Source: a virus. Taken from it: DNA of 27,713 nucleotides. The translations under genes and the position numbers were made by a program. The stretch lies in the IMG/VR virus record IMGVR_UViG_3300010233_000172, positions 1,507-29,219 of that record; one strand, written 5' to 3'. Shown piece by piece: positions 22,336-26,579 of the stretch. The stretch's first letter is position 1, and every line of letters starts with the position of its first letter. The notes under the pieces were generated by a model that saw only the letters and a list, made by a program, of their open reading frames with translations, was not told where the DNA came from and made no database searches.

Positions 22336-23580
22336 CTACCCCAACTTAATACGGGTGAAAGCTTCAGCCAAAACTGGCATACCGTCCGTTTCGAGCCTGG
22401 CGATGAATCCAATTTGATTGTTCAGAGCAAACAGCTCGTTCAATCTACGGAACTGAAGTGCAAGACTGTCTGCGATCCAATAGTGCGTGAAGTCTGCGAA
22501 CATACCCACATACTGACCTGTAGTGAAAGTGTTCGGAGCATATTCAGACATCATCATTGGACGGCCAAGCAGCATGTCAGGAACGCCGGATTTTTCAGAG
22601 AGGTCGAACAGATAACATCCGTTACCGTCTTTGAGCAGAGCAAGCTGTTTGATAGCGTCACGATGGAATAACCACTGTGCAGATGCCATGTACTGAGCTT
22701 TCATGCTGTATTTAACAGCAATCAGGTTGTCAGCAGTAATCTCAGTCGCGGTGTTACCTTCGGAAACGTCGCGTGAGGTAGGAACGCCATCAGCACTTGC
22801 GGTGAATACGCCAAGAGGCTGCTGCGAGCCGTTACCTGTCAGGTAGCCTTTCTCCATTGCCACGCCGAACTTGTAGCCGATACGGTCATTGACAATACCT
22901 TCAATTGGAAGGGCTGAGTTGCGAAGCAGAGGCTCAGAAACCTTAACCAGTTTGGACAGAGGGTGCGGAGTGAGGGAACGTTTGCCGAAAGCCATGTTTG
23001 TATCTTCAGCAACAGTACCAACTTCAGGAGTCCAATCAGCATCAGCAACATCGGTGTCCAGGGTAGGTACGCCGCAAGACATTGAACCGTTGAGAGGAAT
23101 GATTGTAGCAAGACCTCGCATGAAAACGCGGTTCTTGACGTTAGCCAGGAGCTGATTGACAAATTCAGCAGGGGTGAGAGTAAAACCACCCTTGATGTCA
23201 GTACCGGCAGACAGACCACGAGACTCAATCAGTTCTTTGCGAAGGGATACGAGTTCTTCAACGTTAAGGTGTCTTTCGCCCTCAAGAATCATTTTGCGGA
23301 AAGCATCGGCTCGAAACTCGTCGCGAGGATCGGCACCTATACCGCGTGTGTCAGCAGCGGCAGCAATTGCAACTGTTGCCAGTTCCCGCTCAGTGTCCTG
23401 AAGACGAACTTCGTCGTCAATCTGAGCTTTGTACTTAATCGAATCGTCCATGAACAGGTTAAAGCTCGCCCTTTCTTCAGCACTCAAGGGGCGGCCTGCC
23501 GTGTCAGCAGCGTCTTTAATCTTTCTTGCTTCAGCTACCGCCGTCCCGCGAAGATCGCGGAGTTCGTTCAAAGTTGCCAT
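22336..23580 (-). CDS. HK97-fold major capsid protein
   Basis: This 414-aa protein is a clear HK97-type capsid subunit. The N-terminal helical delta region (1 to about 120) is of the kind cut off during maturation. The capsid fold follows with GGFTLTPAEFVNQLLANVKN, then PHPLSKLVKVSEPLLRNSAL, YLTGNGSQQPLGVF and WLFHRDAIKQLALLKDGNG, a segment highly typical of the family. Cleavage probably falls near residues 120-132 (ESRGLSAGTDIKGG). The start has AAAAGGAG. It follows the prohead protease gene as expected. Confidence 0.95.
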   Translation of the reverse strand: MATLNELRDLRGTAVAEARKIKDAADTAGRPLSAEERASFNLFMDDSIKYKAQIDDEVRLQDTERELATVAIAAAADTRGIGADPRDEFRADAFRKMILEGERHLNVEELVSLRKELIESRGLSAGTDIKGGFTLTPAEFVNQLLANVKNRVFMRGLATIIPLNGSMSCGVPTLDTDVADADWTPEVGTVAEDTNMAFGKRSLTPHPLSKLVKVSEPLLRNSALPIEGIVNDRIGYKFGVAMEKGYLTGNGSQQPLGVFTASADGVPTSRDVSEGNTATEITADNLIAVKYSMKAQYMASAQWLFHRDAIKQLALLKDGNGCYLFDLSEKSGVPDMLLGRPMMMSEYAPNTFTTGQYVGMFADFTHYWIADSLALQFRRLNELFALNNQIGFIARLETDGMPVLAEAFTRIKLG

Positions 23581-23633: not shown

Positions 23634-24563
23634 TTAATACAAATAATTCATTTTCATCAACGTAGCTTTATCAGTATTTGGACACGTTAAACACTGACAT
23701 TTAGGCTTCATACATTTGGTGCAAGTACCTCCTTCAGATTTGGTCATAAGGGTACAATTTTTAACATTTTCACAAGTTGAACAAAGACAACCTTCTTCAT
23801 TACATTCTTCACACGTACCTATTGTGTTGTAAGAAGCATATCCCATATCCACCCGTTTTTCAGGAGTGCCTTCGGTGTCCATTTCAGCTAACTGAAGTTC
23901 AAGTTCAAGACTTTCCATTTCCATTTTGCGTTGTTCTTCGGCTTTATCTGCTGCGGCTTTTGATGCAGCCGCATCTTCAACATCAATTTGCGAGTGCATT
24001 GAACGCAATGCACATGATGTATCTACGTAAGCCGGATATGTTACAGGGCTTGCGTCATACAGACGCGCAATGCTGTTTATAGACCTAATAAATTGCCCCG
24101 GGTTTGCGCTGTCACGTTCCCAACTATCACCTTTATCGGAAACCGTAAAGCCAAAACTGCACTGGCTAATGTCCCCGCGCTGCATTGAAACTTGCAGGTC
24201 GCGTGAATAGCTCGTATCAGGCGGGTCGTTCTCAAATGCCAAACCAACGTCATCTTCTTTAATTCTCAAAGTACCGGCCAAAGTACGTCCCATAATGAGA
24301 TTCGGGTCGTGATTGAAGAGCGACCTGCAATCCGACACTGCAATTGCCGCTGAAAAACATCCAGGCATTAGTTGCTCTCTGAAGTACACCGTTTTACCGT
24401 CGGTATCTTTCATCGGCATCACTTCGCTAAGAGTATTAAACTTTGCAGCGTAACCTCTTATCGTCGGAGTTCTCTTTCCAATGGAAGGTGGTTCAATACG
24501 CAACTCAGCCGTATAAGTTCTACGCTCCATTACAGTTTCTAAATCTCTAGTTTCAAGTTCCAT
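23634..24563 (-). CDS. Prohead protease with a duplicated cysteine-rich C-terminal tail
   Basis: This 309-aa protein has an HK97-family (S78/U35) protease domain at 15-190: IRGYAAKFNTLSE, catalytic His85 in FNHDPNLIMGRT, and catalytic Ser136 in SQCSFGF. A helical linker (about 195-230) leads to a tail in which the pattern C-x2-C-x4-C-x-C-x2-C occurs twice with identical spacing (C251, 254, 259, 261, 264 and C281, 284, 289, 291, 294), 30 residues apart. This strongly suggests two metal-binding units. Such a tail is not usual for the family. ATG 24563 has GGAG upstream. It lies between the bacterioferritin-like gene and the capsid gene. Confidence 0.9.
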   Translation of the reverse strand: MELETRDLETVMERRTYTAELRIEPPSIGKRTPTIRGYAAKFNTLSEVMPMKDTDGKTVYFREQLMPGCFSAAIAVSDCRSLFNHDPNLIMGRTLAGTLRIKEDDVGLAFENDPPDTSYSRDLQVSMQRGDISQCSFGFTVSDKGDSWERDSANPGQFIRSINSIARLYDASPVTYPAYVDTSCALRSMHSQIDVEDAAASKAAADKAEEQRKMEMESLELELQLAEMDTEGTPEKRVDMGYASYNTIGTCEECNEEGCLCSTCENVKNCTLMTKSEGGTCTKCMKPKCQCLTCPNTDKATLMKMNYLY

Positions 24564-24574
24564 AATTTGCTCCT

Positions 24575-25042
24575 TTAATCAACTTGAGCGATTAAATAAT
24601 TTTCTATACCTGAATTAATTATCTGAGTTAGATTTGATTCAATTGCATTAAGATGTGCTTCCTCTTCTTCAAGAATATGCTCAAGTAACTTGCGTGTTCC
24701 GAAGTCGTTGTTCGCTACGCAAAGATTAATACCTTCAGCATAACCGGCGATTGCGTTGATTTCGGCAGTCTGATCGAAAGGAAACATTTCAATAACGTCT
24801 TTGCCCACAGTTACAGGAGCAACTATTTCAAAGATCGGCGTTCCTTCAAGAAACAGAATACGGTCAATAAGTTCCTGAGCGTGTTCCCGTTCATCTTCAG
24901 CACGTTTCTTAATGTAGGCAGCGAGCTTTGCGTAGCCATTGTTAGCCACCATACTTGCGTGAGTAGTGTACTGAACGTAAGCAGCGTGTTCTTCGGCCAA
25001 ACGAGCGTTTAGCATATTTATAATTTCACCGGAAACTTTCAT
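24575..25042 (-). CDS. Bacterioferritin-like di-iron protein without the haem ligand
   Basis: This 155-aa protein is full length for bacterioferritin (158 aa in E. coli) and keeps its numbering. All six ferroxidase ligands are present: E18, E51, H54, E94, E127 and H130, along with Y25 and D50. The haem-binding Met52 is Arg here, so the Bfr haem at the subunit interface should be missing. The family forms 24-subunit shells that oxidise and store iron. No C-terminal extension is present that could be an encapsulin-type cargo tag. It overlaps the portal stop as ATGA, with GAGGT upstream, and is followed by the prohead protease 12 bases on. Whether it acts in the host cytoplasm or in the virion cannot be told. 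Confidence 0.93.
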   Translation of the reverse strand: MKVSGEIINMLNARLAEEHAAYVQYTTHASMVANNGYAKLAAYIKKRAEDEREHAQELIDRILFLEGTPIFEIVAPVTVGKDVIEMFPFDQTAEINAIAGYAEGINLCVANNDFGTRKLLEHILEEEEAHLNAIESNLTQIINSGIENYLIAQVD

Positions 25043-26379
25043 GGTTTTACCTCGTCAACTTTAGGATCAACTTTAACTTCAGGTTTAGCTACAGGTTCAG
25101 GTGGATTCAACACATTCTTTGCAGCTTGAATACCACTACCCATATAAACAGCGTCACATTCTTCCATTGAGTAGGGGCTTTCACCCTCTTTACGTTTAAT
25201 GTCATTCGGCGTCAGAGAACCTGTGTTTAAACGCGCTTGATAGTAACTCGCTCTCGCTGCTGTGTCGCCGCGCATCAATTCATCAAAGTCAAAATTAAAA
25301 TAGTAATCTTGTTCTGAGTCGTAAAGCAAATCTACTTTAAGCCGCTGTTCAAAATTTTCAAAATCAGGTTGCATGTTCAAAGTTATAAACATCTGCATAA
25401 TAACTTCAGCACTTGCAAACGTTTGATTCTTGTCACCTGAACGATGAATTAACATCATTGGAATATCAAGGTATGAACAAATATCCTCAACTTGAAACTT
25501 GCGACTTTCGATAAACTGCGAATCTTGCATTGTCATACTTAAACTTGAAATGTCCATTCCATTTTCAAGTATGATTGTTCTGTGGGAATTAGCCGCGCCT
25601 GAATATTGGTCAAGTTGTTTCTTCAGTCTGTCAAACGCCGGATCGTCCAGTTTAGCAGGATGTGTAAATACCTTGCCAATTTGAGCGCCATTCGTAAACA
25701 GCCGCGCACCCTGTTCTTCCATCGCCATCGAGAGGCCAACTGATTCAGCCATCAACCGGATTAGCGTTTTGCCCACAATACCGTTGGTAGATGTGTTTCT
25801 GAAATGCAGTATCTCGTCAGCGGTGTAAATTTCACTTTGAGCATTCACCGCAAAATACTGATAGAACAATTTAGAGCCAGCAGGCGGCGTCGGGCTGCTG
25901 TCATTCATGTAATAAGTAATACCGGCCGGTGTAATAACAAACGGCCACATTCTATCAGGATCAAGCGGCACAAGCTGATTTAAGCCGCGCCCCGGTGTGC
26001 TTATCTTCAAGTTGTAAAAGTTGCCGCGCAACTGAAGATGCGTCATGCCAGTTAAACGCCATTCATACGATGTCTGCCAAGCGTTCGGCTTCAGGTGCAT
26101 CTGCTTGTATAACCTGTGCGACTTAGCTATCTCATGGCCGTTTCCAGGCAGTTCCTTCATAACATGAAGCGGCAGCATTGCGAAGGCTTTACCTCGACGA
26201 TTCATACAAGCCCATACTGTAGAAATCTTTAATGCTGTATCGGCGTTAACATTCTGGCCTGAAGCTGTTCCTGCGCTGCCGCCGAACATACCTGCTAACG
26301 CCGAATCGCCGCCATTGCTGATATTTACAGAAGCTCCTACTGAAGCACGTTTTTCAAAGAGCGAGCTTAGGAACCCCAT
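25039..26379 (-). CDS. Portal protein, HK97 family
   Basis: This 446-aa protein has the usual features of HK97-type portals: ALKISTVWACMNRRGKAFAM, then LPLHVMKE, the clip/stem region with NFYNLKI and LVPLDPDRMWPF, the LIHRSGDKNQTFASAE motif (about 307-322) and TPNDIKRKEGESPY (about 397-410). The N-terminal 40 residues are Gly/Ser-rich. It forms the dodecameric DNA entry ring at one vertex. The start overlaps the small membrane gene as TGATG and the stop overlaps the bacterioferritin gene as ATGA. Confidence 0.93.
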   Translation of the reverse strand: MGFLSSLFEKRASVGASVNISNGGDSALAGMFGGSAGTASGQNVNADTALKISTVWACMNRRGKAFAMLPLHVMKELPGNGHEIAKSHRLYKQMHLKPNAWQTSYEWRLTGMTHLQLRGNFYNLKISTPGRGLNQLVPLDPDRMWPFVITPAGITYYMNDSSPTPPAGSKLFYQYFAVNAQSEIYTADEILHFRNTSTNGIVGKTLIRLMAESVGLSMAMEEQGARLFTNGAQIGKVFTHPAKLDDPAFDRLKKQLDQYSGAANSHRTIILENGMDISSLSMTMQDSQFIESRKFQVEDICSYLDIPMMLIHRSGDKNQTFASAEVIMQMFITLNMQPDFENFEQRLKVDLLYDSEQDYYFNFDFDELMRGDTAARASYYQARLNTGSLTPNDIKRKEGESPYSMEECDAVYMGSGIQAAKNVLNPPEPVAKPEVKVDPKVDEVKP

Positions 26380-26579
26380 CAGTTTTCACCGATAGGTTTA
26401 GCTTTAGCAATTGCCTCAGCGCGAGCTTTAACAAGCGCCGTAACAATAAGCAGGATACCAAGAACAATGTAAGCAACGGGGATTGAAAGCTGATAGACGC
26501 CGAAAAAGACGGCAATTATTCCAAGCAGGAACAAGCAGACAGACACGTCGGGCATTATGTGGAAGAAGTTTTTTAGCAA
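26379..26579 (-). CDS. Small two-helix membrane protein
   Basis: This 66-aa protein has hydrophobic helices at about 10-29 (VSVCLFLLGIIAVFFGVYQL) and about 32-50, then a charged tail (KARAEAIAKAKP). TTG 26579 is preceded by AGGTGGG at reasonable distance; ATG 26555 lacks a ribosome-binding site and would shorten the first helix region. It is the first gene after the putative late promoter and overlaps the portal start as TGATG. Size and topology would suit a holin, but small membrane proteins of unknown use occur ahead of portals in other phages, so I leave it unassigned. Confidence 0.65.
   Translation of the reverse strand: MLKNFFHIMPDVSVCLFLLGIIAVFFGVYQLSIPVAYIVLGILLIVTALVKARAEAIAKAKPIGEN

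Follow-up and report, generated by a model that had tools for sequence, protein, structure and literature searches.

A haem-less bacterioferritin coupled to the portal gene in the head operon of an uncultured phage

The head-operon locus and its ferritin

The window (the whole 27,713-nucleotide stretch of DNA analysed here) is part of a 30.7 kb IMG/VR viral contig which carries, in minus-strand order, a terminase fragment, small ORFs, a 66-aa membrane-type protein, portal, ferritin, S78 protease and HK97 major capsid protein. The terminase fragment sits at the contig end, outside the window, and was assigned by similarity to the terminases of relatives. The features of the locus, in window coordinates, are:

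26379–26579, minus strand: small membrane-type protein, 66 aa, 5' of the portal and end-to-end with it (phrog_502, E=1e-10)
25039–26379, minus strand: portal, 446 aa (PF04860, E=5.8e-82; phrog_12)
25039–25042, minus strand: portal stop codon overlapping the ferritin start codon (ATGA), read from the sequence
24575–25042, minus strand: bacterioferritin, 155 aa (Pfam PF00210 Ferritin, E=1.1e-30)
23634–24563, minus strand: S78 prohead protease, 309 aa (PF04586, E=2.4e-40; TIGR01543)
22336–23580, minus strand: HK97-type major capsid protein, 414 aa (PF05065, E=1.9e-53; TIGR01554, 237 bits)

A GAGG lies at 25050–25053, about 8 bases upstream of the ferritin start. Scanning for the sigma-70 consensus only, no promoter or terminator belonging to the ferritin itself rose above shuffled background (fewer sites than in the shuffles), which together with the ATGA coupling suggests that the gene is probably expressed with the operon. 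A sequence-only reading of this DNA had described a full-length bacterioferritin between portal and prohead protease, central to the head operon and joined to the portal through ATGA. Both points are borne out, with the overlap seen at 25039–25042 and the portal, protease and capsid neighbours identified by profile, and to them we add a missing haem ligand that the reading did not mention.

The TIGR00754 bfr score of the window ferritin (115.9 bits) falls just under the NCBIfam equivalog cut-off (125.55), which is exceeded by the sister copies L111 (131 bits) and L113 (127 bits), and its identity as a bacterioferritin also follows from a PDB sequence search and from structure. The closest PDB structure to its AlphaFold (AF2) model (pLDDT 91.8) is Pseudomonas BfrB (TM 0.97, rmsd 1.0), and helices are predicted at 5–34, 38–64, 83–110, 114–144 and 146–151, the fifth being helix E. 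All six diiron ferroxidase ligands are present (E18, E51, H54, E94, E127 and H130), and the haem-ligand Met52 is replaced by Arg. Because arginine, lysine or threonine also occupies position 52 in some cellular catalytic subunits from tandem bfr pairs, we label the protein a haem-less bacterioferritin, and the window gene is a genuine member of that kind. By analogy, these catalytic haem-less subunits of cells support a working window ferritin, for which 24-mer assembly and catalysis would be expected. PHROGs holds no family for the window ferritin or for its more distant relatives described below (group B). The best match in a genome scan, a tandem bfr pair in an Azoarcus MAG, was considered as a pointer to the host and rejected as too distant (39%).

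One slot across viral contigs and a graded iron site

Ferritin- and portal-based searches found the ferritin between portal and protease in 19 viral contigs including the window (group A). Recurrence of the same gene order in a further 18 contigs drawn from numerous metagenomes argues against both chance and an assembly chimera, so that conservation of the portal–ferritin–protease order, which the sequence-only reading had proposed to check, is established in this set. The possibility that would have undone that reading, a recent random insertion, is ruled out for the window ferritin by the portal tree, which is explained by a single gain of the gene and two losses. Group A ferritins also form a single clade (support 100/98). 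The gene was probably captured once by an ancestor of the phage clade, one gain being sufficient, and then held in the head operon; its placement behind the portal is an old arrangement. No other genomic position for the ferritin was seen among group A matches, and no integrase in ten group A contigs, which are possibly fragments. At least 11 contigs within the same portal clade are free of ferritin, where absence applies to the slot only since several contigs are short fragments: in L098 the protease begins 3 bp past the portal, and in L099 the slot holds only a small ORF. Loss in two branches of the clade indicates that the ferritin is dispensable. With the more distant portals fetched (~41% identity and below), a model built from group A sequences detected no ferritin.

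Small ORFs also lie between portal and ferritin in L002:7822-8004, L003, L004:2285-2491, L006:7825-8004 and L113:1691-1969; the window has none. They are of three unrelated-looking kinds, some of them ATGA-coupled to the ferritin, and those of L002 and L006 have no PHROG match. L099 (5292-5510) has such a small ORF in its ferritin-free slot. Two further irregularities were observed in these contigs: the portal frame of L004 (958-2319) is split into two ORFs by a frameshift or an assembly error, and the terminase ORF of L002 (1567-4533) is 988 aa long and includes an intein-like insert (AISINTPLPTPLGW...NLYLAGRHFVPTHN), which is missing from relatives of ~580-640 aa.

Group A forms a series in the state of the iron site. 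A complete diiron site together with helix E is found in nine contigs (window, L002, L003, L004, L005, L006, L012, L111 and L113), whose eight distinct sequences keep all six ligands at identities down to ~50%. The six ligand columns are invariant, compared with one third of all columns (chance p ~0.001), and close pairs within this intact set have dN/dS of 0.07–0.12, indicating strong purifying selection; homology to cellular Bfr, retained ligands and this constraint in close pairs are what the sequence offers on the criteria for an auxiliary metabolic gene. L107 and L108 retain four of six ligands. Eight further contigs (L114, L115, L118, L119, L120, L123, L185 and L186) are degenerate, with one or two of the six ligands and no helix E, L185 and L186 being placed here since their ferritins score the same as that of L120 against the model. 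Degenerate ferritins still match Pfam Ferritin (E 1e-10 to 1e-20) in intact reading frames, and the model of the L118 protein is a confident four-helix ferritin without helix E (TM 0.96 to BfrB). Their dN/dS is higher (~0.2–0.6, from partly saturated data), pointing to constraint that has been relaxed or has changed direction, while the frames stay intact. The position of L107 apart from the degenerate clade in the portal tree makes repeated loss of ligands probable, but this is not firm, as the ferritin tree sets L107 beside that clade (91/85). By analogy with mixed cages, degenerate phage subunits might join host Bfr, against which stands their additional lack of the haem ligand.

Retention of all ligands under strong constraint points to iron chemistry in the window lineage, and coupling to the portal to production with the heads. 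We posit, giving it an even chance on the sequence evidence, that the window gene encodes a working haem-less ferritin which is made with the head and acts on iron in the infected cell rather than serving as packaged cargo. Portal coupling would have the ferritin made late, in step with head building, when it could oxidise and sequester free Fe2+, consuming peroxide or oxygen, during DNA replication and packaging. The outcome might be less Fenton damage, or iron held away from the dying host, and the protein would not enter the virion as cargo. Against an iron role, eight group A contigs and every scored group B locus keep the gene without a complete diiron site, and the gene has been lost in two branches of the clade. 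Iron chemistry alone also does not explain the fixed place beside the portal.

A second clade and the meaning of the portal slot

A second ferritin-fold clade (group B) comprises 35 contigs, in which the gene usually follows the portal immediately. Profiles recover the same fold: the L266 protein, for example, matches PF00210 (E=2e-11) and reaches 49 bits against TIGR00754. At 26 of the 34 loci examined the portal ends no more than ~32 bp from the ferritin start or overlaps it, four others have a gap of 190–460 bp, and three show no portal within the examined stretch. The group B portals belong to PF04860, or to the lambda-type PF05136 in L322, L273, L323, L324 and L328 (by similarity to L272), and the proteases are ClpP, S78 or fusions. 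In L317:2811-6058 the ferritin-fold gene is flanked by two capsid-like genes.

None of the group B members scored has the complete diiron set. In alignments at ~25–30% identity to bacterioferritin, ungapped around positions 51–54, residue 51 is Ala, Ser, Thr or Cys, residue 54 is almost always aromatic and residue 127 is His, while E18, E94 and H130 are kept by most members. Histidine occupies the haem position 52 in 28 of 33 group B ferritins (e.g. L316:4001-4462), and beside the lost diiron ligands it could possibly form a haem or other metal site. Close pairs have dN/dS of 0.07–0.12; the median of 0.27 reflects more distant pairs with near-saturated dS and was set aside. An AU test of one shared viral origin for groups A and B speaks neither for nor against it (p 0.50).

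These observations bear on the strongest rival to an iron role, namely that the protein is a portal-coupled head-assembly factor on a ferritin fold (a chaperone of portal or procapsid, a scaffold or a minor head protein, produced at a constant ratio to the portal), with iron binding ancestral, optional and kept in the window lineage; the two functions may coexist. Such a factor would account for the single slot throughout the 19 group A contigs and for the portal-adjacent position of most group B loci behind two Pfam portal families, and the head-operon loci came from ferritin-based searches too, not from portal-based ones alone. It is equally consistent with the strong constraint on group B close pairs despite their incomplete diiron sites, and with the degenerate group A copies, which keep their ORFs and a confident four-helix fold. 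However, no ligand has been lost in the window lineage, phages such as L098 in that clade build heads without ferritin, and the fast evolution of the degenerate copies would fit slow decay too. To our knowledge, no phage protein of this kind has been demonstrated to serve in head assembly, and we regard the proposal as rather unlikely. A broader version strikes us as slightly more credible, if still doubtful: that the bacterioferritin fold was recruited for head morphogenesis, being portal-coupled in two clades (19 and 35 contigs) and two portal families and mostly without a complete diiron site yet conserved, with the window an intermediate between enzyme and structural protein.

Alternatively, the ferritin could be a moron, an accessory cargo gene unlinked to heads that occupies a head-operon gap tolerant of insertions and prone to recombination and was perhaps spread with homing endonucleases. 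The slot does host unrelated small ORFs, a GIY-YIG-like endonuclease directly follows the ferritin in L003, L012, L114, L115 and L118, and L120 and L123 have identical protease and capsid and mostly 80–90% alike portals but are only ~50% alike over most of the ferritin, a drop that indicates a recombination boundary there. We nevertheless consider a moron improbable: the gene is coupled to the portal, the sigma-70 scan detected neither a promoter nor a terminator specific to it, a single gain is enough for the clade and no group A match places it elsewhere, the endonuclease is present in only five of the 19 contigs, and group B shows this placement again alongside different heads. The GIY-YIG-like ORFs themselves (family assigned by eye; L003:8474-9190, L012:4932-5576, L114:5250-5930, L118:4767-5657 and L006:2745-3785) lie immediately 5' of protease (or terminase) genes and end in W-x-CAL, or in some cases G-C-A-L, and their 3' ends extend into the start region of the next gene; these endings possibly represent a conserved insertion-site signature.

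Coupling to head genes also raises the idea of ferritin cages inside the virion, either as an encapsulin-like iron cargo or as a Ferrojan-type carrier. The parallel with encapsulins drawn from the sequence alone finds no support. The window capsid matches TIGR01554 and PF05065 only and has an adjacent portal and protease and a terminase, as in an ordinary phage rather than an encapsulin-type shell, and the ferritin has no loading peptide and scores 29 and 28 bits against the EncB and encapsulin-associated ferritin models, far below their cut-offs of 90 and 125. The same reading was right that no cargo tag is visible, as the C-terminus is that of an ordinary Bfr and none of the 15 aligned members has a long N- or C-terminal extension. 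Many relatives in the same slot lack the iron site, and sister phages that keep the gene after losing the site are difficult to reconcile with a placement explained by iron storage. Intact delivery would also fail, since a ferritin cage measures 12 nm, too large to leave by the portal channel, which is a few nm wide. In favour of cargo, two host bacterioferritin peptides were detected in CsCl-purified virions of phage AXL1, possibly as a co-purifying contaminant (PMC9206674). This is the least likely of the readings, and we hold it to be very improbable. The window protein instead resembles a product of the head operon that has iron chemistry in its own lineage, and not an iron store packaged in encapsulin fashion.

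Relation to known ferritins and encapsulins

Phage and virus genomes with genes for Dps, Mn-catalase or bacterioferritin have been described (PMC8008677, PMC11780533, PMC10904782, PMC6669764), and these genes were read as acting on host iron and oxidative stress (PMC8008677, PMC10904782, PMC6669764). The virus-borne ferritin-superfamily proteins of Gratiaviridae, Flandersviridae, Lactobacillus phages and a putative Bathyarchaeia virus are likewise interpreted as acting on iron and oxidative stress, but in the Lactobacillus case the gene lies near DNA-metabolism genes whereas the window ferritin is coupled to the portal. Searches of the open-access literature turned up neither a portal-coupled ferritin nor a case of iron-site loss. 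Neither a group A nor a group B ferritin occurred in a phage setting among the matches examined in a 50,697-record collection of isolated phages. Matches in Pseudomonas phage Y5 and faecal 'Bacteriophage sp.' scaffolds have bacterial neighbours (by eye, pyrC, peroxiredoxin, DsbD-like and cysteine synthase genes) and were therefore treated as host DNA, and Salmonella and Acinetobacter matches (130–580 kb records with annotated host-type bfr) are probably host DNA as well.

Viral ferritin-family genes were thus known before, but had been read as loose metabolic extras. In the metagenomic sequences that supply all of the evidence here, many uncultured phages have a ferritin attached to the portal gene, and the copies grade naturally from a complete enzyme to an iron-dead fold. 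With this gradation one can ask experimentally whether phages manage iron while packaging, or whether they have turned an iron protein into a part of capsid assembly.

Compared with ordinary bacterioferritin (TIGR00754; E. coli Bfr, P. aeruginosa BfrB), the window protein shares fold, length, helix E, the six diiron ligands and ~36% identity, and differs in Arg52, in its phage head-operon location and in a score slightly under the NCBIfam cut-off. Hetero-oligomeric bacterioferritins (Shewanella SoBfr12, PDB 9iig) show that cells combine catalytic subunits lacking the haem Met with non-catalytic partners, whereas in the degenerate group A copies the haem ligand is missing as well as the diiron site. 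Encapsulins with ferritin-like cargo (EncFtn, EncB, FLP) likewise pair an HK97-fold shell gene with a nearby ferritin-superfamily gene, but the window has no loading peptide, its capsid comes with protease, portal and terminase, and its ferritin is a bacterioferritin rather than of the encapsulated type. If the phage protein does prove to be an assembly part, encapsulins and phage heads would be at least two separate encounters of an HK97-fold shell with a ferritin, each serving a different end.
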